Assembly (NCBI GenBank): GCA_026398285.1 | Contig: JAPLTI010000158.1 | Location: 1-37,171 of the forward strand | Reading direction: 5' to 3' | From: Verrucomicrobiota bacterium | GTDB taxonomy: Bacteria > Verrucomicrobiota > Verrucomicrobiia > Chthoniobacterales > Terrimicrobiaceae | DNA length: 37,171 nt | In this document: positions 3,394-33,470 of the stretch, piece after piece | Layout: every line of letters begins with the position of its first letter | Position numbering within the stretch: position 1 is the stretch's first letter | Translations under genes and position numbers: made by a program | Notes under the pieces: generated by a model | Databases searched by the model: none | Seen by the model: only the letters and a program-made list of their open reading frames with translations | What the model was told of the DNA's origin: nothing

Positions 3394-4653
3394 ATGAATT
3401 CCGAACTCATCACAATGCTGGACCTGCTGGAGCGTGAGAAGGGCATCAAACGCGATGTCCTCGTGGAGGCTATTTCCACATCCATCCTGGCGGCTTCGAA
3501 AAAAAGTTTCACCTCGGGCACCCGCGAGCTTCGCATCGAGATCAACCCGCAAAGCGGCGCCATTCGCGCCATGGCGAAGCTTATCGTGGCTGAGAAAATA
3601 TCGAGTCCGCATGAAGAGATTCTCCTTTCCAAGGCTCGCGCCATTAAGCCAGACGCCCAGCCGGGTGAAGAGCTTGATGTCGAGGTGACGCCACGCGACT
3701 TCGGCCGCATCGCCGCACAGGCGGCCCGTCAGGCCATCAACCAGCGCCTCCGCCAGATCGAGCGGGAGATGATTTATGATGAGTTCAAGGATCGCACCGG
3801 AGAGATCGTGACCGGCACCGTCCGCCGCTTCGAGCGTTCGGATGTGATCGTGGATCTTGGCAAATTTGAAGGCGTCATGCCATCCCGCGAGCGCGTGCTC
3901 ACCGAGGAATACAATGTCGGCGACCGCCTGCGCGCCTATGTCGTCGCCGTGGAAAGCGGCAACCGCGGACCGGAGATCATTCTCTCCCGAAGCCATCCGA
4001 ATTTTGTCCGCCGCTTGTTTGAACTGGAGGTCAGCGAAATTGCCGACCGCACTGTAGAACTCAAGGTCCTCGCCCGCGAAGCAGGTTTCCGCACGAAGGT
4101 CGCCGTCCACAGCGCCGATCCGAAGGTCGATCCCGTAGGCGCCTGCGTCGGCATGCGCGGAGCCCGCGTCAAAAATATCGTCCGCGAACTCAACAACGAG
4201 AAAGTGGACATCATCCGCTGGGATGCCGACCCGCTCAAATTCGTGAGCGCCGCGCTCAAGCCGGCTAACATCAAATCCATCACCGCCGACGAAGCGAAAA
4301 AAATCATTCAGGTTCTTGTGCCGAAGGAAGACCTATCGATTGCCATCGGACGCAAAGGCCAGAACGCCCGCCTCACCGCAAAAATGTGCGGATGGGAAGT
4401 TGATATTCAAGAAGACAAACGCGAGGAAAAAGCCCTCAAGCACAAGACTGACGAGGCCGCCCACTCGCTTGCTGAGATTCTTGGAGTTTCCGAGGAAGAG
4501 GCCCTCAAACTAACCGCAGGCGGCATGAATTCCATCGAGGTCATTCAATTGGCCGGCGCAGAGGACATCGCCGAGGCGCTCGGTTCCGACATCGAAACCG
4601 GTCAGCGAATCCTCGCAGCGGCACAGGCTACACAAAAAACTCCCGCCGCCTGA
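3394..4653 (+). CDS. nusA: Transcription termination/antitermination protein NusA
   Basis: 419 aa; S1/KH architecture, DPVGACVGMRGARVKNIVRELNNEKVDIIRW and SIAIGRKGQNARLTAKMCGWEVDI motifs; next to infB. Confidence 0.97.
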   Translation: MNSELITMLDLLEREKGIKRDVLVEAISTSILAASKKSFTSGTRELRIEINPQSGAIRAMAKLIVAEKISSPHEEILLSKARAIKPDAQPGEELDVEVTPRDFGRIAAQAARQAINQRLRQIEREMIYDEFKDRTGEIVTGTVRRFERSDVIVDLGKFEGVMPSRERVLTEEYNVGDRLRAYVVAVESGNRGPEIILSRSHPNFVRRLFELEVSEIADRTVELKVLAREAGFRTKVAVHSADPKVDPVGACVGMRGARVKNIVRELNNEKVDIIRWDADPLKFVSAALKPANIKSITADEAKKIIQVLVPKEDLSIAIGRKGQNARLTAKMCGWEVDIQEDKREEKALKHKTDEAAHSLAEILGVSEEEALKLTAGGMNSIEVIQLAGAEDIAEALGSDIETGQRILAAAQATQKTPAA

Positions 4654-4689: not shown

Positions 4690-6831
4690 ATGGCAGAGAA
4701 AACAAAGAAAAAAACCACCGAGGAGAAGCCGGCCGCCACGAAGCGTCCAGCAGGATCCTCGCGCTCCACGCGCACTCCACGCTCCGCTGAAACTCCCGCG
4801 CCATCTGCCACCCCAGCTCCCGAACCGAAGGTTCAGGGTCCGACGGTCGACCTGCTCGAGCCGGTTAAAAAAGTAAAAAAAACTTCCGATAAGCCTGGCC
4901 TCAAGCCTTTCATCAAGCCTCTCGTAGCCACGCCGGTCTCGCAAACGCCACCTCCGCCTGAACCAGAGCCGATTCCTGAATCAGTTCCTGCAGAAGAGAT
5001 ACCCGCTAACGAGGAATCCGAGCTCGAGGTGTCCAGTGCAGATTTGTCGGGGAAAAAAGTCCTCAACATTAAGCCTCCGATCGCCGTAAAGGCGCTGGCC
5101 GAGGAACTCGGTCTCAAGCCCTTCCAGCTCATCAAGGACCTGATGTCGCTCCAGATTTTTGCGAATCTGAACCAGACTGTTGAGGCGGATGTCGTCGCAA
5201 AGGTCTGCGATATGCATGGCTTTGTTTTCGAGCGTGAGCGCAAGGATACATCGAAGGGACATCATAAGGTCGAAGCGAAGGTCGAGGTTCCCAAAGCTCC
5301 CGAGCCAGCCAAGATCGACGAACTCCAGCTTCGCGCCCCGATTATCACTTTCATGGGTCATGTGGACCACGGCAAAACATCCCTTCTCGATGCCATTCGT
5401 AAGGCCCGCGTCGCAGCCGGTGAAGCCGGTGGCATCACCCAGCACATCGGCGCTTACAGCGTCGAACGCAATGGCCAAAAAATCACTTTCCTCGACACCC
5501 CCGGCCACGCCGCTTTCACCGCGATGCGCGCCCGGGGAGCCAATGTCACGGATATCGTGGTTATTGTTGTGGCAGCAGATGACGGCCTCATGCCGCAGAC
5601 GCTCGAAGCGATCTCCCACGCCAAAGCCGCCAAGGTCAAAATCATGGTGGCGATCAACAAAATCGACATGCCTTCGGCCAATCCCGACCGTGTCCGCACC
5701 CAGTTGCAGGAAAAAGGCCTCACTCCCGAAGATTGGGGCGGTGAAACGATCTGCATTCCGGTGAGCGCCACAAAAGGCACCGGCATAAGCGACCTTCTCG
5801 ACTCCATGCTCTTGGAAGCGGAAATGCTGGAACTCAAAGCCAGCTCGTCCTTGGACGCCCGCTGCACAGTCATCGAAGCCCAGGTCGAGCAAGGCCGCGG
5901 ACCGACAGCCACTGTGATCGTTCGCATGGGCACCTTGAAAGCAGGCGATGTCTTCATTTGTGGCAACCACTGGGGCAAGGTGAAGCAACTCATCAATGAC
6001 CTTGGAAAACCCGTCAAGGAGGCTGGTCCTTCGATGCCGGTGAAAATCCTCGGATTGAGCGGACTCCCGAATGCGGGCGACGAATTGGTCGTGATGGATT
6101 CGGAAAAATCCGCGCGAATTCTGAGTGAAGAGCGCCTGGCCGATCTCCGCGACACCAAACTTTCCACACCTCAGCGCACCACGCTGGAAAACCTCTTTGC
6201 CAGCATCGCCTCCGAGTCGAAGCCCGCGCTCAAAGCCATCGTCAAATGCGATGTGCAAGGCTCGCTCGAAGCCGTCGTGGCGTCGCTCAAGGAGATTCCT
6301 CAAAAGAAAATCACCCTCGATATCATCCACAGCGCCGTCGGCCCGATCACGGAGTCCGATGTCCTTCTGGCCAGCGCGTCCAATGCCGTCATCATCGGCT
6401 TTGGCACCAAGACCGAGAACAGCGCCGCGCAAGCCGCCAAGCGCGAGGGCGTTCAGATCAAGCTCTACAGCATCATTTACGAATTGCTCGACCAGGTCCG
6501 CGAATCCATGAGCGGCATGCTCGCGCCGGAACACCGCGAAGCCATCATCGGCCACGCCGAGGTCAAGCAGGTGTTCGATCTCACCAAGGGCAAGGTGGCC
6601 GGTTGCATTGTCATTGATGGCCGGATCGCCCGCAGCGCCCGAGCCCGCGTGTTGCGCCGCCGCCAGCCGATTTACGACGGCGGCATCGCCACACTCCGCC
6701 GCTTCGCCGACGAGGTTAAGGAAGTGCGCTCGGGTCTCGAATGCGGCATCAAGCTGGGTGATTTCACGGAATACCTGCCCGAAGATATCATCGAGTGCTA
6801 CACGCTCGAGAAGATCGCGCAGCAACTGTAG
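4690..6831 (+). CDS. infB: Translation initiation factor IF-2
   Basis: 713 aa; G1 [36 protein letters not shown] motifs. Confidence 0.98.
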
Positions 6832-6892
6832 ACTTTAATCCTAATCCCACGACCGACCGCAGGCTGAAGACCTCGTCCGGACAAACAGTGCC

Positions 6893-7261
6893 ATGAAAAA
6901 CCGACTCGTCAGGGTATGCGAAGTGCTGAAACGCGAAATCGGCGTAATCATTCGCCGCGAGCTGGAGTTTGAAAACACTCTCGTGACCGTAAGCGATGTA
7001 GACATCACTCCCGACCTCAAGCAGGCCCATATTTTTATTTCCGCGCTGGGCACGCCCGCCGGACGCCGCAAGGCGATGGAGGCCCTTGAGAACCACCGAG
7101 TCATGTTCCAGACCGAGCTGTCCCGCCGCGTGCAAATGAAACACACGCCCCACTTGAATTTCCGCCTCGACGACGCCATCGAGCGCGGCACCCGGGTCAT
7201 CGACATCATGGATGAGCTCGGCCTAAAGGAGGAATTGCCAAATGACGAAAATGAACTTTGA
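6893..7261 (+). CDS. rbfA: Ribosome-binding factor A
   Basis: 122 aa; RVCEVLKREIGVIIRRELE..VTVSDVDITPDLKQAHIFIS; position between infB and truB. Confidence 0.93.
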   Translation: MKNRLVRVCEVLKREIGVIIRRELEFENTLVTVSDVDITPDLKQAHIFISALGTPAGRRKAMEALENHRVMFQTELSRRVQMKHTPHLNFRLDDAIERGTRVIDIMDELGLKEELPNDENEL

Positions 7262-8216
7262 CATCATCTCAGATGCACTTCGCGATGCCCGCACGGTGGG
7301 AGTTGCCAGCCATATCCGCCCCGATGCCGACGCGCTGGGATCGACCATTGCCTTTGCCCTCTGGCTGCGCGATTGCGGCAAGGAAGTGACGGCCTACAAC
7401 GAGGAGGGTTCGACTGCGAAGTTCCACTACCTGCCGTGCCACGAGATCGTAAGCCTGCCTCCCGCCACGCCGCAGAAATTCGATGTTTTTGTCGCGCTCG
7501 ATACCTCGGTGAAAAACCGCCTCGGCACGGTGAACAAAGCGATCGCCCCCGGCACGACGGTCCTCAATATCGATCACCACATCAGCAACGAGAACTACGG
7601 CGATGTGAATTTCATCGATGCCTCAGCACCAGCCACCGGGCAGATCCTTTTGGAATTTTTCCAGCATGTCGGCGCCCGCGTTTCTGCAGAGATGGCGACC
7701 AATCTGTTTGCGGCGATCTCCACCGACACCGGCTCATTCCAATACGCCGGCACAAACGAGCGCACCTTCGCCGCTGCCTCGCATCTCATCAGCTGCGGCG
7801 TGGATGTTCCCGGCCTCTCCCGTGCGATGTATGACAGCCAGCCCCGCCGCCGCTTCGAACTTCTCCGGCACGCGCTGAATACTGCCGAGTTTCATTGCGA
7901 CGACCGCATCGCAACTTTCTCCCTCCCGATGGATCTCGTGGAGAGACTGAAGGTCCTCCCCGAGGACAACGAGGGGATCATCGACCATCTGCGTTCCATC
8001 GAAGGCGTCGAAGCCGCCGTGTTTTTCGAGGAACTTCCCGAAGGCAAAGTGCGCGTGAGCGCCCGCTCGAAGTTTCCGAGGATCGATGTCTGCAAAGTGT
8101 GCAAAAAATTTGAAGGCGGCGGACACCCTATGGCCGCCGGCGCTCGCGTCGATGGCACGCTCACCCAAGTCAAAAACGATTTTTTAAAAGCTCTCTCTGA
8201 TGAAATCCGGAACTGA
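7242..8216 (+). CDS. nrnA: DHH-family phosphoesterase (NrnA-like bifunctional oligoribonuclease/PAP phosphatase)
   Basis: 324 aa; SHIRPDADALGS, NIDHHISNENYGDVNFID, C-terminal GGGHPMAAGA. Confidence 0.88.
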   Translation: MTKMNFDIISDALRDARTVGVASHIRPDADALGSTIAFALWLRDCGKEVTAYNEEGSTAKFHYLPCHEIVSLPPATPQKFDVFVALDTSVKNRLGTVNKAIAPGTTVLNIDHHISNENYGDVNFIDASAPATGQILLEFFQHVGARVSAEMATNLFAAISTDTGSFQYAGTNERTFAAASHLISCGVDVPGLSRAMYDSQPRRRFELLRHALNTAEFHCDDRIATFSLPMDLVERLKVLPEDNEGIIDHLRSIEGVEAAVFFEELPEGKVRVSARSKFPRIDVCKVCKKFEGGGHPMAAGARVDGTLTQVKNDFLKALSDEIRN

Positions 8217-8922
8217 AATTGACGGCGTCCTGCTCGTAGACAAAGCTCCAGGCATGACATCCCACGATGTCGTGGCGATAACCCGCCGTGCGCTGAACAC
8301 CAAAAAAGTCGGCCACTGCGGCACGCTGGACCCGCTCGCTACAGGGCTCTTGATCATCACCATCGGCCGAGGAACAAAAATCCAAGACCTCCTCATGAGC
8401 GAGGACAAGGAGTATGTCGGCACGCTGGGCCTCGGTGAGATCACGGACAGCCAAGACTCCGACGGACAGGTCATCGAAACCCGGCCGGTCCCCGATTTTA
8501 CCCGCGATCAATTGGATGCGGCGTTCGCCAAATACCATGGCGATTTTTATCAGACGCCGCCGATGGTTAGCGCCATCAAGAAAGATGGTGTGCCACTCTA
8601 CAAGCTCGCGCGTCAGGGCAAGACCGTGGAACGCGAGCCACGCTTCGTTCATGTTTACGCACACGAGATTCAATCCGTGAGAATGCCGGAAGTGGATTTC
8701 CGCGTTGTGTGCAGCAAGGGATTTTATGTCCGCACCTACGCAAACGACATCGGCATGGAGCTCGGCTGCGGAGCACATCTCAAATCCTTGCGCCGCACGA
8801 AATCCGGACGATTCAATGTGGAAGGTGCGGTGACCATTGAAGAACTCAAGGCGGGACCGATTGAAGCCATCGCGCAGCGCGTCCTCAGCCTCCCCGCCGT
8901 TTCGCGGCTTCGCGGTGCCTGA
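8200..8922 (+). CDS. truB: tRNA pseudouridine(55) synthase TruB
   Basis: 240 aa; GVLLVDKAPGMTSHDVV and KVGHCGTLDPLATGLL motifs. Confidence 0.96.
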   Translation: MKSGTEIDGVLLVDKAPGMTSHDVVAITRRALNTKKVGHCGTLDPLATGLLIITIGRGTKIQDLLMSEDKEYVGTLGLGEITDSQDSDGQVIETRPVPDFTRDQLDAAFAKYHGDFYQTPPMVSAIKKDGVPLYKLARQGKTVEREPRFVHVYAHEIQSVRMPEVDFRVVCSKGFYVRTYANDIGMELGCGAHLKSLRRTKSGRFNVEGAVTIEELKAGPIEAIAQRVLSLPAVSRLRGA

Positions 8923-9863
8923 TGAAAATCCTTCGTTCCATCGAAGCCCTTGCGGAAATCGATGCGCCGGTCGTGCTGGCAGCAGGTGTCTTTGATGGCC
9001 TGCATCTCGGCCATCAGGCAGTGCTCCGCGCGGCCATAGAATCCGCCGCCCGCATTGGAGGCGTTCCAGTCGCACTGACATTCGACCCCCATCCCGCTGT
9101 CATCCTGCGTCCAGACAAGGCCCCAAAACTTCTGACGCCTCTGGATTTCAAGCTGGAACTCATTGAGCGCCTTGGCATCGAACACGCCCTCGTCATCACA
9201 TTCGACGCCGCTTTTGCTGCCATCGAAGCTGAGGACTTTGTTTTGAAGCTCTGCCACACCGCGCCAGAGCTTACCGGCATCTGCATCGGTGAAGGCTGGC
9301 TGTTTGGCAATGGCAGACGGGGAAATGCCCGTTTGCTGCAAACACTCGGAATGAAAAACGGCTTCTTCACTAGCGCCACCGCGCCAGTCCTCATGGATGG
9401 GGAAGTCGTCAGCAGCACACGCATCCGGGAAGCCCTCGCTTCAGGCAATCTGCCCGCAGCCGCACGCCTCCTTGGCAGAGACTTTGCCGTTCGTGGCAAG
9501 GTCACACGCGGTGCCGGACTCGGAGCAAAACTCGGCTTCCCCACGGCCAATATCGCCACCGGCCATCAGCAATATCCAACGGACGGGGTTTACGCCATCC
9601 AAGCAACATGGAACGCCAAGACATACCAAGGCGTGGCAAACATAGGGCTGCGTCCGACCGTTTCGGATGACAAGCAACGCGTTCTAGAGGTGCATCTTTT
9701 TGATTTTTCCGCCGACCTTTACGACACCGAAATCGAAGTCGCGTTTCTTAATTATCTCCGGCCTGAGAAGAAATTTGAAAACAAAGACGCCCTCTGCGTG
9801 CAGATCCGCGAGGATGTGGGCGCAGCGCGTGAGTGGTTTCAAAACCGGACTGCCGCAGCATGA
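8922..9863 (+). CDS. ribF: Bifunctional riboflavin kinase/FAD synthetase
   Basis: 313 aa; GVFDGLHLGHQAVL, STRIREALASGNLPAAARLLGRDFAVRGKVTRGAGLGAKLGFPTANI. Confidence 0.96.
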   Translation: MKILRSIEALAEIDAPVVLAAGVFDGLHLGHQAVLRAAIESAARIGGVPVALTFDPHPAVILRPDKAPKLLTPLDFKLELIERLGIEHALVITFDAAFAAIEAEDFVLKLCHTAPELTGICIGEGWLFGNGRRGNARLLQTLGMKNGFFTSATAPVLMDGEVVSSTRIREALASGNLPAAARLLGRDFAVRGKVTRGAGLGAKLGFPTANIATGHQQYPTDGVYAIQATWNAKTYQGVANIGLRPTVSDDKQRVLEVHLFDFSADLYDTEIEVAFLNYLRPEKKFENKDALCVQIREDVGAAREWFQNRTAAA

Positions 9864-12382
9864 ACTCGCCTTGGCATTTCGGCACCTACGACGAAATGTC
9901 CGGCCCAGATGGCCGTCCGCGCGAGGTTTACAAAGCCCTCTCCGAACGGCTTCAAAAAACACCGCGCGCACAATTGCGGAGCCTCGACGAGCAGCTTGAA
10001 GCAACCATGCGCGAGATGGGGGTCACTTTCGACATCCACCGCGACCGCCCATGGGGAGCCCGCGCCTGGTTCTGCGACCTCCTACCCCAGATTTTTACGC
10101 CCACCGAGTGGGGGCCACTGGAAGCCGGAGTGCGCCAGCGTCTGCGGGCTTTCGAGCATTTTCTCAAAGACATCTACGGTCCTAAACAAATCCTGCACGA
10201 CGGTGTGTTGCCGGTTTCCCTTGTTCTGGGCAGCGAGTTTTTCCAGCGCCCGGCAGCCGGCCTCCCGTTGCCGGGGGATGCATTTCTGCACTTGAGCGGT
10301 GTCGCGGTTTGCCGCCTGCCGGATGGAACGCTCGCCGTGAAGCACCATTATTTCAGCCACGCTTCCGGCATGTCCTACATGATCCAGAACCGCCGTGCCC
10401 TCACGCGGGTCATCCCCCAATCCTTCCACGACACCGGCATCCACTCGATTTCCGATGTTCCCACCGGCATTCTGGAAATGCTGCGGTCGCATTCTTCCCA
10501 GCCGGATCCCATGGTCGTGCTCCTGACTCCCGGCCCGCTCAGTCCGGCCTATTCGGAGCATAGCTTTCTTGGCCGCCGTATGGGCATCCCGCTCGTGCAA
10601 GGCGGGGATCTCCTGGTGCTCAATGACGAGGTCTATTTGAAAACCGTCTCGGGCTTGAGCAAGGTGGATGTCATCTACTCGCGCCTTACCGACCGGTGGC
10701 TCGACCCCATGGTTTTCCGTCGTGACTCAATGCTCGGCGTTCCCGGGCTCATACACTGCATCCGCAAAAAAAGCGTGGCCGTCGTCAATGCCATCGGCTC
10801 CCAGCTTTCGGATGACCGCGCGCTGTTGCCATTCTCCTCGCAAATCATCCGCTACTATCTCGGCGAGGCGCCCCTTCTACCCACGCTTCCAACTCATTGG
10901 CTCGGCGATCACGATCAGCGCGAACTGGTGCTGGCGGACATCGAGAAATTCACAATCCGGGGGCTCTACGGCGAACGCATCTACCTTGGAGGTGATGGCC
11001 ATCTCCCGTCGCAGGAAAAAATCGACGCCGTTCGCGCGGAAATCCTCGGCGACCCCGCACGCTATGTGGCGCAACCGCAGGCGTGTGATGCCCAGACCAT
11101 TTCCTTTCAGGATGGGGAGCGCCGGAAAAGCCGTCAGGACCACATTCTTTTCGCTCTTCGCAAAAGCGGCGGGGATATCGAAGTTTTCCCCGGCGCACTC
11201 ACGCGCGTCTCGACGAAAGATTCGGAATTCACCTCCTCCGAACTTGGCGGCGGCAGTAAAGACACTTGGGTTCAAGTGGGCGTGGATAAAAAATCCGACG
11301 AATGGGATCCCTCGCGGCAAGTGGACTCGAAAATTCCGCTCCATGGCGTGACTAGCCGCGTGGCAGAGGCCTACTACTGGCTCGGACGCTATCTCGAGCG
11401 CGCCTACGACCTGGCCGGAATGGTGAGCGTCATCGAATCCCTCGAGCTCGAGGAGCTGAATCCCACCGAGCGGATGAACTACCGTCCCGTCTGGAACCGC
11501 ATCCTCCCTATGCTGGAAGGGTCGGGCTCCGCGTCCCGCCGCACGATTTCAAGCCCAGAGGGCCGCTACCGCCTCACCTTCGATCCCGCTGAGCCCGGCT
11601 CGGTCATCAGCACGATCCACCGTGCCTTCAGCAACGCCGAGTCGGTGCTCGAAACCTTAAGCCTCGATGCTTGGGGCGTGATGAGCGGACTCCGCGCGCG
11701 TTTTGATGCGGTGAATTTCCAACCCGATGCTCCCACCGAGACGCTGGCAAACGCGAGTCGCGAGTTCTGCTTGTTCGCCCGCGAGATGATTCCCCGGTTT
11801 TTTGGAACGGCTAAATGCACGATGCTGGCGGATGATGGATGGAGCTTCTGCGAAATTGGGCAGCTTCTCGAGCGCGCGGCCATCACGGCAAATGCCGTCA
11901 CCTCCATCGCCGGTCCGCTTCTGCAGACCTCCCGCGCAAGCCTGCGGCCGCACGCGGTCGAGATTCGCCTTTCCGCTTTTCTACGCCTCCTAAACAGCCG
12001 CGACATCTACCGGCGCGTTTACCAGATGCGCATCGAGCCGCTGCCTCTTCTCGAGCTTCTTTGGACAAATCCCGTGGCTCCGCGCTCGGTCGTTCGCTGC
12101 CTGCAAGGCTGCGCCGCGCGCATCCGCGAAGGGGAGAATGTGCTCTCGCCCGCCACAGACAAGGCCCTTTCAACAATCGAACGCCTGATCGAATCCATCC
12201 AGGCCAGCGATTGGGAGGCATTGCTCTCCAGTAAAAAATCAGGCGCGTCGAAATCCGCCCTGCAGGCCCATTCCGATGACCTTCTCCAAAGCCTGCTCGG
12301 ACTTCACACCGTGATCTGCGACAGCTTTCTGAACCATCAAGTGCTCATGCACGACGAAACAAAGCCTCTTTTCACCGCCTGA
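9860..12382 (+). CDS. Circularly permuted ATP-grasp (DUF404/DUF407) fused to alpha-E (DUF403) domain protein
   Basis: ORF 9833..12382; start ATG 9860 overlaps ribF stop (ATGA). ...LPLPGDAFLHLSGVAVCRLPDGTLAVKHHYFSHASGMSYMIQNRRALTRV..., then VTSRVAEAYYWLGRYLERAYDLAGMVSVI typical of alpha-E. Confidence 0.85.
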   Translation: MNSPWHFGTYDEMSGPDGRPREVYKALSERLQKTPRAQLRSLDEQLEATMREMGVTFDIHRDRPWGARAWFCDLLPQIFTPTEWGPLEAGVRQRLRAFEHFLKDIYGPKQILHDGVLPVSLVLGSEFFQRPAAGLPLPGDAFLHLSGVAVCRLPDGTLAVKHHYFSHASGMSYMIQNRRALTRVIPQSFHDTGIHSISDVPTGILEMLRSHSSQPDPMVVLLTPGPLSPAYSEHSFLGRRMGIPLVQGGDLLVLNDEVYLKTVSGLSKVDVIYSRLTDRWLDPMVFRRDSMLGVPGLIHCIRKKSVAVVNAIGSQLSDDRALLPFSSQIIRYYLGEAPLLPTLPTHWLGDHDQRELVLADIEKFTIRGLYGERIYLGGDGHLPSQEKIDAVRAEILGDPARYVAQPQACDAQTISFQDGERRKSRQDHILFALRKSGGDIEVFPGALTRVSTKDSEFTSSELGGGSKDTWVQVGVDKKSDEWDPSRQVDSKIPLHGVTSRVAEAYYWLGRYLERAYDLAGMVSVIESLELEELNPTERMNYRPVWNRILPMLEGSGSASRRTISSPEGRYRLTFDPAEPGSVISTIHRAFSNAESVLETLSLDAWGVMSGLRARFDAVNFQPDAPTETLANASREFCLFAREMIPRFFGTAKCTMLADDGWSFCEIGQLLERAAITANAVTSIAGPLLQTSRASLRPHAVEIRLSAFLRLLNSRDIYRRVYQMRIEPLPLLELLWTNPVAPRSVVRCLQGCAARIREGENVLSPATDKALSTIERLIESIQASDWEALLSSKKSGASKSALQAHSDDLLQSLLGLHTVICDSFLNHQVLMHDETKPLFTA

Positions 12383-12384
12383 CT

Positions 12385-13263
12385 ATGCTGTTCAACATTG
12401 TTCACACCACGGGCTATGTTTACGCAGACACGGCTATGGAGGCTTACCTGGAAGTGCGCCTCACACCGCCCGTCAGGCCTGAACAGGGTGTCCTCCGCCA
12501 CCGCATCGTATTCAAACCCGCCGCCGAAGCCTCCGACTACATCGACTATTTCGGAAACCGGACGACTTTCTACTCGATGACATTGCGCCACCGGCAACTC
12601 AAGGTGACGAACCGTTTGACCGTCCGCACACTCCCTCGCGTCCTGCCAGAGAGTGGACTCGCACTCACCATTGCTGAGGCCCGGCAGATTTTAAAATCCC
12701 GAACCGGAGTTTTCGACTACTTGCAACCGACCGAGGCGATACCGGTGGATGCCGAATCGAGTGCATGGGCGAGGGACATCTTGCGGGAAAACCGGCCTCT
12801 GCGGGAGGGCCTCGATGAGCTGAACAAAACGATTTACCGGGAGTTCAAATACCGCACGGGTTCGACGGAGATCGAGACGCCTCTTTCGCTGATCTGGAAA
12901 AAACGCGAAGGCGTCTGCCAGGATTTCGCCCATGTGATGATCAGCGTCCTGCGAGCCGCTCGCATTCCCTGCCGCTATGTGTGCGGCTACATCGAGTCCG
13001 AGCCGTCCGTTTCAGCCAACCCTTCCCTCAAGCGCCTGGTCGGATCTCTGGCCACACATGCGTGGGTGGAGGTCCTGGTTCCCGGCATGGCTTGGGTGGC
13101 GCTGGATCCGACAAACAACCAATGGTGCGGCGAGCAACATGTCACAGTCGCCGTGGGCCGCGACTTCCTCGATGCCGCCCCCGTGCGGGGAACTTTCAAA
13201 GGTTCAGCCTCGCAAAAGCTGAAAGTGCATGTGAGCATGCAGCGAATTCCTGAAAAACTATGA
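12385..13263 (+). CDS. Transglutaminase-like protein
   Basis: 292 aa; GVCQDFAHVMISVLRAARIPCRYVCGYI, ATHAWVEVLVPGMAWVALDPTNNQ: Cys/His/Asp triad context intact. Confidence 0.9.
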   Translation: MLFNIVHTTGYVYADTAMEAYLEVRLTPPVRPEQGVLRHRIVFKPAAEASDYIDYFGNRTTFYSMTLRHRQLKVTNRLTVRTLPRVLPESGLALTIAEARQILKSRTGVFDYLQPTEAIPVDAESSAWARDILRENRPLREGLDELNKTIYREFKYRTGSTEIETPLSLIWKKREGVCQDFAHVMISVLRAARIPCRYVCGYIESEPSVSANPSLKRLVGSLATHAWVEVLVPGMAWVALDPTNNQWCGEQHVTVAVGRDFLDAAPVRGTFKGSASQKLKVHVSMQRIPEKL

Positions 13264-14108
13264 AACTCAAAATCAAAAAGGAATCGGTCTACACCTACGA
13301 GGGCAAGGTGTCATTTTCACCACACCATGTGCGAATTTTTCCTCGCATCGACTTGTCCGTAAAGGTCGAGCGCATCCATTTCGATACCCAATCGGGTGCC
13401 GATGTGCAGTTCCGGCAAGACCTCTTCGATAACCATATCGCTTATTGTTTCTACCCGGAGATGTCAGTGACGCTTCCCTTCCGCGTGGAACTCGATCTCG
13501 AAGTGAAGGAGAAAAATCCCTTCCATTTTCTACTGGAGCCACATGCCCTGCAGGTTCCGCCCCAATATACCGAGGACGAACTTGCGGTTCTTGCTCCGTA
13601 TCTCGCACCGGTGGCCGGATGCAAACTTCCAGCCCCTCTAGCGCCCTCCGGTCCGCGCCCAACGGTCGAGACGATTCTAAATTTCAACCACTGGATTTTC
13701 GACAACATCGAGTATGAGACGAGGCCGCAAGGCATGCCGCACACGCCGGAAGAGACTTTGAAAAAAGCCAGCGGCTCCTGCCGGGACTTTGCGGCTCTTC
13801 TCACGGAAAGTCTCCGCCAGAACGGCGTGGCCGCGCGCCTCGTCAGCGGTTTTGTCTGGGAAGGCGATAAGCCCGAGTCCGAAAAACGCGCCTCCAGCTC
13901 CATGCACCTCTGGGTCGAAGCCTGCCTGCCAGGCGCAGGGTGGATTGGCATGGATCCGACCAACGGTGTGCTCACAGACCATCACTTCGTCGCCACGGCA
14001 GTCGGCCGCCGACATGATGATGTGGCACCAATCAGCGGCGTTTACTACAGCAGCACGCCATTTGCCAGCAGCCTTGCCACCAGTATCTCGGTGGAGAAAA
14101 TCGCGTGA
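13260..14108 (+). CDS. Transglutaminase-like protein (second, divergent copy)
   Basis: 282 aa; GSCRDFAALLTESLRQNGVAARLVSGFV, SSMHLWVEACLPGAGWIGMDPTNG; ATGA overlap with the preceding gene. Confidence 0.9.
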   Translation: MKLKIKKESVYTYEGKVSFSPHHVRIFPRIDLSVKVERIHFDTQSGADVQFRQDLFDNHIAYCFYPEMSVTLPFRVELDLEVKEKNPFHFLLEPHALQVPPQYTEDELAVLAPYLAPVAGCKLPAPLAPSGPRPTVETILNFNHWIFDNIEYETRPQGMPHTPEETLKKASGSCRDFAALLTESLRQNGVAARLVSGFVWEGDKPESEKRASSSMHLWVEACLPGAGWIGMDPTNGVLTDHHFVATAVGRRHDDVAPISGVYYSSTPFASSLATSISVEKIA

Positions 14109-14216
14109 GGACTTCACCAACCCTTCACCGCACAATATCGGGAAACCAGCCAGGCCTCCCAATCGTAAATTAAAAAGCAGGCAGGTTCACATGGGCCGAC
14201 CACACGCTCACACATC

Positions 14217-15029
14217 ATGAAATTTTTTGAAGGCTGCACGGCACTGATCACAGGAGCATCCTCCGGACTGGGGGCGGAATTCGCGCGCCAACTCGCCCCG
14301 CTCGCCTCGTGCCTCGTTCTTGTGGCCCGGCGCAAAGATCGTCTCGAGGAACTCGCCTCGACGCTGCGTTCGATCCACCCCCAACTCGATATCCGTGTCT
14401 TCGAGGCTGACCTGACCCTCTCCGACCGTCGCCACGCTCTGGCCGATTGGCTCGCCAACGAAAAGCTCGATATCAATTTCCTCATCAACAACGCAGGCCT
14501 CGGCGATCACGGGCATTTCGAGTCCAGCGACTGGACCCGCGTGCAAGAGATGATCGACCTCAACATCACCGCGCTCACCCATTTGACCCACCTGCTTGCG
14601 GGACGAATGATCGTTCGCGGCCGGGCGGCCATACTCAATGTCAGCAGCGTGGCGGGATTTTTCCCTCTGCCGAACATGGCAGTTTACGCAGCCACAAAAG
14701 CGTATGTCACCAGCCTGTCGGAGGCCCTTGCCATGGAGTTGCGTCCAAGAGGCATCACCGTCACCGCCCTCTGTCCCGGACCCGTGCCGACAGAGTTTTT
14801 CGATATCGCCACCCGGCCTGGCGAGCAGGATCAGGCCTCCCATTTTGAAACCTTCCCGGCCTTTGTCGTTTCCGCTGCCGAAGCCGTGCGCGATGGTCTC
14901 CGCGCCGTGGCCAACGACCGCACCCGCGTCATTCCCGGCCCACTGCTCGCGGCAGCCGTTGCCGTGGCACTTGCCATCCCCTTCTGTATCGTCCGCCGCA
15001 TTCTCACTGCAAAAGCCGCATCTTTTTAG
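14217..15029 (+). CDS. Short-chain dehydrogenase/reductase
   Basis: 270 aa; ALITGASSGLGAEFARQLA, NNAG, YAATKAYV motifs. Confidence 0.93.
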   Translation: MKFFEGCTALITGASSGLGAEFARQLAPLASCLVLVARRKDRLEELASTLRSIHPQLDIRVFEADLTLSDRRHALADWLANEKLDINFLINNAGLGDHGHFESSDWTRVQEMIDLNITALTHLTHLLAGRMIVRGRAAILNVSSVAGFFPLPNMAVYAATKAYVTSLSEALAMELRPRGITVTALCPGPVPTEFFDIATRPGEQDQASHFETFPAFVVSAAEAVRDGLRAVANDRTRVIPGPLLAAAVAVALAIPFCIVRRILTAKAASF

Positions 15030-15041
15030 AAAATCCGTCCG

Positions 15042-16043
15042 ATGCCCACATCCACCACGAGCCACTCCGAGTCCCTCTCCTTCGCCGAGGCATTCGAACT
15101 CATCAATCCACACCTCTACACAGTCGAGGAACGCATCCGCGCCCAGGCCAAATCGTTCGATCCTGCCGTGGAGGGTTATGTCTCCTACATCTGCGGCGCG
15201 GGCGGTAAACGCCTGCGACCCGCTCTGGCGCTTCTCTCCGCCGGAGCCACTGGAAAAATCACCCCCGGCCATGTGGATCTCGCGGTGATCCTTGAACTCA
15301 TACACATCGCAACGCTCGTTCACGATGACATCATCGACGGCGCGGAACTCCGCCGCGACCAACCCTCGGCCAATGCCAAGTGGGGCAACTCCATCAGCGT
15401 CCTCCTCGGCGATGTGCTCTTTGCCCACGCGCTTAAGCTTTCCACAAATTTCAGCAACAGCGAAATCTGCCGCCGCATCGCGGATGCCGCCTCCGAGGTT
15501 TGTTCCGGCGAGATCATCCAGACCCAGCGCCGCTTCGATCTCAAGCTGACCACGGCCGATTACTACCGCATTATCGAAATGAAGACGGCCGCCCTCTTCA
15601 CCGCAGCCTGCGAGCTGGGCGCATTCATCAGCGAGGCCAGCCCCGCTGTGATCGGATCTTTCAAAACCTTCGGCACCAAACTCGGCGTCGCCTACCAGAT
15701 CTACGACGATATTCTCGACTTCGCCGGTAATGAGGAGGAGACCGGCAAAACGCTCGGGACCGATCTCCAAAAAGGAAAATTCACCCTCCCCGTGCTGCTG
15801 ATGCTCCAATCTGGAAAAGATGTCACCGCCCTGCGCGACATGCTGCTCAATGATGAGCCCGGAAGCACAGCCGCCCTCGCTGCTATTCTTCAAGAGGCGG
15901 GAACGATTGAGAATGCGAAAGCTATCGCCAACAGACTCATCGCCGAAGCCGTCGAACAACTCGACGGAGTTCAGGACAACCGCTACGCACGCGGCCTGCG
16001 CGCGATTCCTGAGCACTTGCACAGCCTCCTCAAGGGGCTGTGA
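15042..16043 (+). CDS. Polyprenyl synthetase family protein (trans-isoprenyl diphosphate synthase)
   Basis: 333 aa; GGKRLRPALALLSAGAT, LIHIATLVHDDIID, YQIYDDILDFAGNEEETGKTLGTDLQKGKFTLP. Confidence 0.95.
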   Translation: MPTSTTSHSESLSFAEAFELINPHLYTVEERIRAQAKSFDPAVEGYVSYICGAGGKRLRPALALLSAGATGKITPGHVDLAVILELIHIATLVHDDIIDGAELRRDQPSANAKWGNSISVLLGDVLFAHALKLSTNFSNSEICRRIADAASEVCSGEIIQTQRRFDLKLTTADYYRIIEMKTAALFTAACELGAFISEASPAVIGSFKTFGTKLGVAYQIYDDILDFAGNEEETGKTLGTDLQKGKFTLPVLLMLQSGKDVTALRDMLLNDEPGSTAALAAILQEAGTIENAKAIANRLIAEAVEQLDGVQDNRYARGLRAIPEHLHSLLKGL

Positions 16044-17436
16044 CAATCTGATCCGCAATCTCCTCGGCTGGATAGGTCCAAATCTCCGAGAGCGTGGGAT
16101 GATAGTGCGGGACAGCCGCAAACTCCCGCGCGGTGGCGCGGTAGCGCATGGCCATGACGACTTCGTGGATGAGCTCGGACGCCTCCGGGCCCACAACCGC
16201 GCCGCCGAGGATTTCGCCTGTTTCCCGTGATGCCGTGAGTTTCACAAGCCCGTGGGTCTCACCCATGAGAAGGGATTTTCCATGGTCGTTGAAGGGATAT
16301 GTTGCCGTGAGAAAAGGAATCCCCGCCGCCTCTAGCTCCGCCTCGGTGGCGCCGACGCTGGCAAATTGAGGATCCGAGAAGACGGCGAAAAGTTTCAGCC
16401 GGTAGTCCATGGTTGCAGGCTGGCCTGAATGACGGTCCAAGTGGATGGCCGCATTGGTGGCGGCGATCTCGCCCTGCTGAATGGCGATATGGACGACTTC
16501 GAGTCCGCCGCACACATCGCCTGCCGCGAAAATGTGAGGGATCGATGTGGCCTGCGTGGCAGCGACTTTGATGCGCCCGCCATCCATCGCCAGGCCGAGC
16601 GCTTCCAGTCCGCGCAGAACTGGCGTGCGGCCGAGGGCGTTGAGGACGCGCTCTGCATGAAGCGTATTGGTGGTGCCGTCCTTTTCGAAAACGACACGCA
16701 TGCCATCGCCTTCTCTTTCGACGCGCAAAAGTTTAGTCCCCGTGTGGATCGTGATTCCATCCGCCCGCATGCCTTCTTCCAAAGCAGCCGCCGCATCGGA
16801 ATCGCTGCCGCGCAGAATTTGCGGGCTGCGTTGAATTATGGTCACCTCGCACCCGAAAGCTCGGCAATAGGAAGCCATCTCCAGCGCCACCGGTCCCGCC
16901 CCAAGCACAATGATCGACTTCGGAATCTCCTCCAGATCGAGGATGTCATCACTCGTGAGGCAACCCGCCTCCGCCAACCCTGGCACAGGCGGCGTCGATA
17001 TTTCAGAGCCGGTTGCGATGAGAAAGGTTTTGCCACGAAGAGTCGTTGAGGAGCCGTCCGACGAAACAATGCGAACTTCGTTGGCATTCAAAAACTCTGC
17101 GCGTCCTCGAAAAAAATCGAACCTGCCGGATTCCAGCTGTCCCTTGCGGTAATCGGCGAACTCCGCGATGAGGCGGCGTTTCCGGGCAACGATCGCCGAG
17201 GCATCGAAGCGGGGATTGTCACATGCCAAACCGAACTCTTCGGCCCGCATCAGAACGCGGAAGCGCCGCGCGGATTCGAGCAGCGACTTGCTCGGCATGC
17301 AGCCGCGAAGAATGCAAAGCCCGCCAACCTCGCGCCCGCCTTCGACCACAGCCACGCGAAGCCCGAGGGATGCCGCCGTTCTCGCGCCGGCATATCCTGC
17401 GCTGCCTCCTCCAATGACGACGAAGTCGTATTCCAT
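16030..17436 (-). CDS. Pyridine nucleotide-disulfide oxidoreductase (dihydrolipoyl dehydrogenase/mercuric reductase-like)
   Basis: ORF 16030..17538; start MEYDFVVIGGGSAGYAGARTAASLGL at 17436; CILRGC redox motif (CX4C), C-terminal HYHPTLSE. Confidence 0.88.
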   Translation of the reverse strand: MEYDFVVIGGGSAGYAGARTAASLGLRVAVVEGGREVGGLCILRGCMPSKSLLESARRFRVLMRAEEFGLACDNPRFDASAIVARKRRLIAEFADYRKGQLESGRFDFFRGRAEFLNANEVRIVSSDGSSTTLRGKTFLIATGSEISTPPVPGLAEAGCLTSDDILDLEEIPKSIIVLGAGPVALEMASYCRAFGCEVTIIQRSPQILRGSDSDAAAALEEGMRADGITIHTGTKLLRVEREGDGMRVVFEKDGTTNTLHAERVLNALGRTPVLRGLEALGLAMDGGRIKVAATQATSIPHIFAAGDVCGGLEVVHIAIQQGEIAATNAAIHLDRHSGQPATMDYRLKLFAVFSDPQFASVGATEAELEAAGIPFLTATYPFNDHGKSLLMGETHGLVKLTASRETGEILGGAVVGPEASELIHEVVMAMRYRATAREFAAVPHYHPTLSEIWTYPAEEIADQIVTAP

Positions 17437-24445: not shown

Positions 24446-24892
24446 ATGGATGTCGGCCGCAAATCGCTACCCCACGAACTTCCGCTGTGGGTTGATGTTC
24501 ACGGGGCCGCGTTTTTCATCACCTGTTGCGCAAAGGATCGCGCGTTGAGTCCATTTGCCTGCCCGAAAACTGCAACCGGACTTTTGGAATCGATCCGTCA
24601 CCGGATGCAAATCCGCATTTGGTATGTCCATGCCGCCATCATCATGCCCGACCATGTCCACCTTGTTCTGGGATTTCCCCCGGAAACGAATGTGGCCAAG
24701 TGCATCCGAGATTGGAAACGATGGACGGCACGCGTCCACGGGTTCGACTGGCAGCGAGATTTTTTTGAACACCGACTTCGCCATGACGAAAGCCTTCAAG
24801 AGAAAATCCAGTATGTCCTCGAAAATCCCGTTCGGGCCGGGCTCGTAGAGGACTGGCAGGATTGGCCTTTTACTATATTGCCTGAAGAGTAG
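24446..24892 (+). CDS. REP-associated tyrosine transposase (RAYT, Y1/HUH superfamily)
   Basis: 148 aa; FFITCCAKDRAL, IIMPDHVHLVLGFPPE (HUH motif), IQYVLENPVRAGLVEDWQDWPF (catalytic Tyr region). Confidence 0.9.
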   Translation: MDVGRKSLPHELPLWVDVHGAAFFITCCAKDRALSPFACPKTATGLLESIRHRMQIRIWYVHAAIIMPDHVHLVLGFPPETNVAKCIRDWKRWTARVHGFDWQRDFFEHRLRHDESLQEKIQYVLENPVRAGLVEDWQDWPFTILPEE

Positions 24893-32777: not shown

Positions 32778-33470
32778 TTATTTGGCTGGCCAATGGTGCC
32801 GGAGTTTTTCGATCCAAGGATCCAGCCCGTCAGCGCGTGTCTGGGAATAGCGGTCCAGTGCCTCGGCTAACTCGCGCAGTTCGGGTGCGATCCAGCCGAT
32901 TACTTCCAAAAGCGATGCGTGTTGTTCATCAAGATTTGTCCAGTGAATGATGCGCTCGTGGTGGAAGGCGCGGTTGCGGAGTTCACGCAAACGAGTCAAG
33001 CGGCGGTTCAGAGTCTGGAGGTCTCGCTGGGACTTGGGTGCGGCACAAAAGGTGAGGGTGGCGATGTGAACGATGTCCCGGCTCTGTGCATAATGCTTGT
33101 TGAAAAAGGCAGTCCAAAATCCAAAGGTCAGCTCCGCAACCATCCTCCCCGGAGATACGGGTTTGCTCAGGCGTTGAAGGTTCTCTTTGGCATTGGAAAT
33201 TTGACTTTTCTGGGTCTTGGTGAGCAATTCGTAGCAGGCACTCTTGTCATACCACTGCGCGGTGAGGAAATGGTTTTCCAGAGCCCTTTGAAGTGCGTTA
33301 CGCAGTCCCACCTCCACCATTTGCAGCGGCGAGTAAAGAGACTCGCAAAGCGCCATATTCCAAAGGTAGCGTGCAAGCGTGATGTGCGGCTCGGCTTGAT
33401 CCTGACGATAGGCCTCAAGTCTCTCTGCTGCCAGAGCTGGTTTAAGATTTTCAAAAAAGACCGTATTCAT
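32778..33470 (-). CDS. Abi family protein (HEPN-like)
   Basis: 230 aa; LARYLWNMALCESLYSPLQMVEVGLRNALQRAL and C-terminal RLRELRNRAFHHERIIHWTNLDEQHASLLEVIGWIAPEL containing an Rx4H motif (RNRAFH). Confidence 0.75.
   Translation of the reverse strand: MNTVFFENLKPALAAERLEAYRQDQAEPHITLARYLWNMALCESLYSPLQMVEVGLRNALQRALENHFLTAQWYDKSACYELLTKTQKSQISNAKENLQRLSKPVSPGRMVAELTFGFWTAFFNKHYAQSRDIVHIATLTFCAAPKSQRDLQTLNRRLTRLRELRNRAFHHERIIHWTNLDEQHASLLEVIGWIAPELRELAEALDRYSQTRADGLDPWIEKLRHHWPAK

Follow-up and report, generated by a model that had tools for sequence, protein, structure and literature searches.

A reduced ATP-grasp/Alpha-E/transglutaminase locus attached to the truB-ribF operon in one genus of Verrucomicrobiota, with a probable pseudo-ligase

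The ATP-grasp/Alpha-E/transglutaminase/Anbu system occurs across bacteria; it has been connected with nitrogen stress, and its biochemistry has resisted assignment. Iyer et al. 2009 reportedly predicted a peptide system of ATP-grasp, Alpha-E, transglutaminase and GS-like amidoligase that occurs with or without Anbu, and its families are said to be the circularly permuted ATP-grasp COG2308, the Alpha-E COG2307, the transglutaminase, DUF2126 and Anbu. We know of no experiment or biochemistry on any long form of the ATP-grasp. The Anbu operons encode ATP-grasp and Alpha-E as separate genes, the ATP-grasp protein of the Yersinia operon releases Pi from ATP, and the Anbu peptidase assays were negative (PMC6376114). 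A homologous cluster in Burkholderia cenocepacia is strongly activated by NtrC/sigma-54 (PMC5491218), Anbu is up under nitrogen limitation in Pseudomonas putida (PMC5666114), and in marine metagenomes these domains cluster with urea metabolism (PMC3597751). On the function of DUF403/404/407/2126 the literature surveyed gave only regulation and metagenome correlations of this kind, with no assigned product. The Rlo system, in which an inactive transglutaminase membrane protein, RloB, goes with the ATP-grasp RloC (PMC12239564), was set aside as a comparison, given that RloC resembles RimK, RloB is a seven-helix membrane protein and the architecture differs.

The DNA analysed here (the window, 37,171 nucleotides) comes from a freshwater Verrucomicrobia bacterium whose genome assembly, in 379 contigs, has a completeness of 82%. 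Its closest relatives are Spartobacteria/Terrimicrobiaceae MAGs (Chthoniobacterales), and the fused ATP-grasp/Alpha-E protein has 95% identity to that of UBA5019. The cassette of this fused gene and two transglutaminase genes extends a nusA-infB-rbfA-DHH phosphoesterase-truB-ribF operon that runs from 3394 (Table 1). A preliminary description of the window had reported ATP-grasp, Alpha-E and transglutaminase genes closely coupled to truB and ribF; each junction that it named was located in the sequence, and Pfam upheld the family assignment domain by domain. Thus truB and ribF have TGATG in common (8920-8924), ribF and the fused gene share ATGA (9860-9863, a -4 overlap), 2 bp lie between the fused-gene stop (12380-12382) and the TG1 ATG at 12385, and TG1 and TG2 share ATGA at 13260-13263. 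The ATP-grasp and Alpha-E of that description are a single 840-aa protein. A consensus scan gave no sign of a promoter belonging to the cassette, the plus-strand sigma-70-like matches within 6800-16100 being at 14074 and 14583 only, and sigma-54-like sites in the window were at chance level by the same kind of scan. The SDR and polyprenyl diphosphate synthase genes adjoin the cassette in the window's genus only and lie outside it in other genera.

Table 1. Genes of the housekeeping operon, the attached cassette and its downstream neighbours (window coordinates)
Feature	Position	Strand	Basis	Remark
nusA	3394-4653	+	Pfam/NCBIfam	start of housekeeping operon
infB	4690-6831	+	Pfam/NCBIfam	
rbfA	6893-7261	+	Pfam/NCBIfam	
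DHH/DHHA1 phosphoesterase, NrnA-like	7242-8216	+	PF01368 + PF02272	
truB, tRNA pseudouridine-55 synthase	8200-8922	+	Pfam TruB; TIGR00431	
ribF, bifunctional riboflavin kinase/FAD synthetase	8922-9863	+	Pfam FAD_syn, Flavokinase; NCBIfam TIGR00083	
Long-form fused ATP-grasp/Alpha-E, 840 aa	9860-12382	+	PF14403, PF04174, PF04168	predicted pseudo-ligase
TG1, transglutaminase-like	12385-13263	+	PF08379 + PF01841	papain-like fold
TG2, transglutaminase-like	13260-14108	+	PF08379 + PF01841	
SDR oxidoreductase	14217-15029	+	Pfam	downstream neighbour
Polyprenyl diphosphate synthase	15042-16043	+	Pfam	downstream neighbour

The system is a real one, already well described in outline, and here it is reduced and relocated. 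The likeness to the Iyer-type system lies in the domain families and the logic of gene order, and the window holds the permuted ATP-grasp, the Alpha-E with its ER motif and two transglutaminases with intact triads. It differs in having neither Anbu nor DUF2126 (neither of which is in every member), in the unlinked long and short halves, in the coupling to the ribF operon and in the absence of the metal-ligand motif. The Anbu operon of Yersinia bercovieri and Pseudomonas also encodes ATP-grasp, Alpha-E and transglutaminase-like proteins together, whereas in the window the long form is fused, there are two transglutaminases and Anbu is missing. Closer in arrangement is the Enterobacter roggenkampii plasmid p1_120063, where a TG1-type gene directly follows the long form and TG2 matches the start of a TG-DUF2126 protein; all five genes stand together on the plasmid, and of these the window has just the long form, TG1 and the TG half. 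What appears to be new is that a strongly conserved protein, apparently an obligate partner, has lost a predicted metal site.

The fused protein is not a decayed one. Its circularly permuted ATP-grasp covers residues ~76-451 (PF14403, CP_ATPgrasp_2, 6e-110; PF04174, 1.5e-91) and its Alpha-E domain residues 498-824 (PF04168, 1e-48), and in the ER motif of the latter R514 is invariant and E513 nearly so among 30 long forms. The AlphaFold model (pLDDT 82) retains the ATP-grasp fold, with PDB 3n6x (Mfla_0391, a putative glutathionylspermidine synthase) as the best match at a target TM of 0.88 and eukaryotic glutathione synthetases next at about 0.6. The Alpha-E model, which is confident (pLDDT 86), had no PDB match at E <= 0.001. 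In comparisons with two relatives, dN/dS came to 0.047 and 0.023 for the ATP-grasp part and to 0.02-0.15 over the cassette; ribF, with 0.21 and 0.14, ranks with the least constrained proteins in this block. The fused protein is therefore under strong purifying selection.

Despite the retained fold, the predicted Mg-binding Asp / Glu-x-Asn motif of active ATP-grasp carboxylate-amine ligases is absent from the window protein. This becomes apparent when the long forms are set against the short ones, which carry D(158)...V-L-E(171)-D-N(173)-x-R-x-P-S-G. All 21 true short forms keep D158/E171/N173, the four apparent exceptions being contig-edge fragments of long forms, and none of 66 long forms keeps both the Glu and the Asn. 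In the window protein the positions are A149, H162 and Y164. The His-His-Tyr replacement is largely conserved in Chthoniobacterales long forms and could be a new active site; in alignments 3n6x keeps EDN where the window protein has HHY. At short-form position 378, where the ATP lysine stands, the window protein has Arg, and for Arg 440 it has Ile; D250, R275, D282, N310, Q405 and K467-D468 are retained. An intact short-form paralogue in the same genome has all the motif residues, the ATP lysine and R440. We infer the Mg-ligand role of the lost positions by motif from E. coli GspS (glutathionylspermidine synthetase), whose equivalents D318/E330/N332 have nearly identical spacing and bind Mg. 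When the ATP-grasp alignments were compared with E. coli GspS by profile-profile alignment, the match was not significant, so the mapping relies on the D-x(11-12)-E-x-N spacing, on the EDN/EYN motif around it and on the fold. The preliminary description had envisaged an amide-bond ligase; the ATP-grasp domain itself stands, but the ligase activity is doubtful for this protein because its ATP-grasp lacks the predicted Mg-ligand residues. Probably the protein forms no amide bonds itself and is a pseudo-ligase that partners the intact ligase encoded on another contig.

That ligase lies on contig C202 of the same genome, where a short ATP-grasp and an Alpha-E gene, unlinked to the window, are followed by a squalene/phytoene-synthase-like gene. 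Within the family, 24 of the 26 genomes have both forms at separate loci and the other two have neither. The wider phylum gave a similar picture in a first look that scored three candidates or fewer per genome: among 289 sampled genomes, many of them incomplete MAGs, 61 had both forms, 13 the short form only and none the long form only, with the class assigned by alignment span and stop codons. Because the unlinked halves are retained together, the two forms appear to belong to one pathway. The pairing could also reflect old co-inheritance with no physical complex.

Both transglutaminases have intact triads. That of TG1 (C178-H225-D241) shows no change in any relative whose sequence covers it, and that of TG2 (C174-H216-D232) is invariant in 42 of 42, although the fold by itself does not tell acyl transferase from protease activity. 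On the tree TG1 groups with the transglutaminase that follows the long form, and TG2 with its orthologue, the N-terminal transglutaminase of TG-DUF2126 proteins (support 98/94). The layout of related clusters is in keeping with this. Other families of the phylum (loci L101, L108 and L110) encode a short ATP-grasp, an Alpha-E, a TG-DUF2126 protein of ~1100 aa, the long fused ATP-grasp/Alpha-E and a transglutaminase; the Enterobacter plasmid has the identical five genes under PGAP names, and in sister genera the DUF2126 putative amidoligase begins where TG2 ends. By the tree placement of TG1 and TG2 and the layout of these clusters, the window holds the long-form half of the five-gene cluster, less its DUF2126.

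By profile searches, DUF2126 has been lost from the window locus and from most of the genus. There was no match to PF09899 at the locus or in its own 82%-complete genome, and only 2 of 16 genomes of the genus have the domain, in unlinked places. The cassette itself is present in 24 of 26 family genomes and in all 16 genomes of the genus that were searched; three genomes of the genus have lost TG1 and kept TG2. The fused gene also occurs in culturable relatives, Chthoniobacter flavus Ellin428 and the LR76 isolate. The absence of an Anbu-type peptidase, remarked on in the preliminary description, was borne out, with no match to the proteasome fold (PF00227) in the genome of origin or in the 26 family genomes. 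It is no peculiarity of the window, being usual in the phylum, and none of the proteasome-fold proteins found elsewhere in it stands beside an ATP-grasp locus.

The link to ribF is tight within the genus. Wherever both ends are assembled (14 of 14 same-genus loci), ribF and the fused gene overlap by ATGA, and RibF identity falls to 49-58% across these same loci, so the conservation of the overlap is far above chance. The coupling described earlier is thus confirmed at this level, but not as the mark of a special flavin- or tRNA-linked system. In genera g2, g4 and g5 the block of fused gene, TG1 and TG2 has other genes upstream and does not adjoin ribF, and none of 19 neighbourhoods examined in the wider phylum has ribF beside the cassette. 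The preliminary description had held that a separate promoter together with unconserved ribF linkage in relatives would count against it, and outside the genus the survey largely found the latter, save for one distant MAG (L138). There truB-ribF is followed by an M24 peptidase gene and then by a cassette with DUF2126; the peptidase was considered as a hidden conserved partner and rejected, as it occurs only in this MAG. On a tree of 54 sequences, two changes must be assumed to explain the loci that are linked to ribF and lack DUF2126: one in the main genus clade, the other in L174, a long-branch, fast-evolving copy (end branch 1.79) whose placement is unsure, and L138 stands apart from the other ribF-linked loci. 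The absence of the link outside the genus and the few separate changes on the tree argue for a capture at the level of the lineage, here the genus, and the coupling is probably positional.

The reading that we favour, and consider somewhat better than even, is that one Terrimicrobiaceae-like genus captured the long-form half of an Iyer-type system at the tail (3' end) of its nusA-infB-rbfA-truB-ribF operon, that the fused protein, as a subunit which does not ligate or has been re-purposed, aids the pair on C202, and that the ribF link serves expression only. With the help of Alpha-E, the short-form ATP-grasp of C202 would use ATP to activate a carboxylate, to which it would join an amine, and the fused long protein would bind or position the substrate for these two proteins or scaffold them. 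With their Cys-His-Asp centres, TG1 and TG2 may then act on amide bonds in the product, by hydrolysis or by transfer. The location after truB and ribF would provide steady housekeeping expression and translational coupling, and not flavin chemistry. We also put forward, tentatively, a conserved pseudo-ligase role for the long form, whose His-His-Tyr site is largely fixed in Chthoniobacterales: it would be an obligate partner of the active short-form ATP-grasp/Alpha-E in an active/inactive heteromer, and in this genus the inactive half would have moved under the control of a housekeeping translation operon after the second amidoligase was lost. It is unlikely, on the other hand, that the fused ATP-grasp is an active amide ligase using other residues for metal or ATP. 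The intact fold, the strong purifying selection, the retained residues named above and the conservation of His-His-Tyr itself would all suit such an enzyme, but all three predicted Mg ligands are gone, together with the ATP lysine and R440, and the paralogue in the same genome keeps every one of these.

That the whole system serves nitrogen scavenging or amide recycling and not peptide tagging, and is made constitutive here by the housekeeping operon, is possible if rather doubtful. The activation by NtrC/sigma-54, the rise of Anbu under nitrogen limitation and the clustering with urea metabolism all argue for it, but sigma-54 sites in the window do not exceed chance, and the idea is compatible with our capture reading and not exclusive of it. 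We find it very improbable that the link to ribF and truB is functional, with the system modifying flavin, a flavoprotein, or tRNA or ribosome components. Such a role would fit the overlap kept throughout the genus and the cassette just downstream of ribF in L138; it is hard to square with the missing link in sister genera and other Verrucomicrobiota clusters examined, with the M24 peptidase gene that intervenes in L138 and with the low constraint on ribF. The cassette might also be a decaying remnant after the loss of DUF2126 and Anbu, to which the absence of DUF2126 from most of the genus, the loss of TG1 in three genomes and the fast-evolving L174 copy would lend themselves. Decay is disfavoured by the dN/dS values, and with the invariant triads and the retention of the cassette throughout the genus we regard it as scarcely credible.

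These findings have consequences for how the family may be approached. Should the long form be inactive and an obligate partner, ligase assays of that protein by itself, or of operons that lack components, would fail; the proper assay would be one with the short form, Alpha-E, the long form and the transglutaminases co-expressed. The window's genus, with no Anbu and mostly no DUF2126, forms a natural minimal set, and this narrows the choice of essential components.

One clade of the genus (L125, L132 and L171; also L040-L042) has lost TG1, the first transglutaminase-like gene, so that the fused ATP-grasp/Alpha-E protein and TG2 alone remain. In one genus member (genome G022, loci L174 / L053) the fused protein has evolved very fast, with an end branch of 1.79 and 45% identity; the gene order there is unchanged. 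The Alpha-E domain is confidently predicted to adopt an all-helical fold, and its model has no PDB match at E <= 0.001.

Both halves of the system have a possible isoprenoid link. At the unlinked short-form locus of the window's own genome (contig C202), the end of the Alpha-E gene is overlapped by a squalene/phytoene-synthase-like gene, which is retained across the genus loci examined, and a polyprenyl diphosphate synthase gene comes after the long-form locus in the same genus.

Coordinates of the features discussed and of other genes in the window
Feature	Location	Remark
Alpha-E domain	window 11351-12379
IS200-like (Y1) transposase gene	window 24446-24892
Protein with Abi_2 (abortive-infection-like) match	window 32778-33470	3.5e-06
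Squalene/phytoene-synthase-like gene	L003:11472-12359 (contig C202)	PF00494, 4e-37
M24 metallopeptidase gene	L138:6856-7974	between ribF and cassette
DUF2126 gene	L058:3853-5823	site unlinked to cassette
DUF2126 gene	L059:3860-5836	site unlinked to cassette

DUF2126, a putative GS-like amidoligase, is retained alongside the cassette in the distant MAG L138, where an M24 metallopeptidase gene separates ribF from the cassette; this arrangement (ribF, M24 metallopeptidase, cassette with DUF2126) may represent a transitional stage, or the cassette may have been captured there independently. Two genus members (G011 and G015) carry unlinked DUF2126 genes that are 47-49% identical to DUF2126 of the sister genus g5, and which may reflect relocation or re-acquisition.
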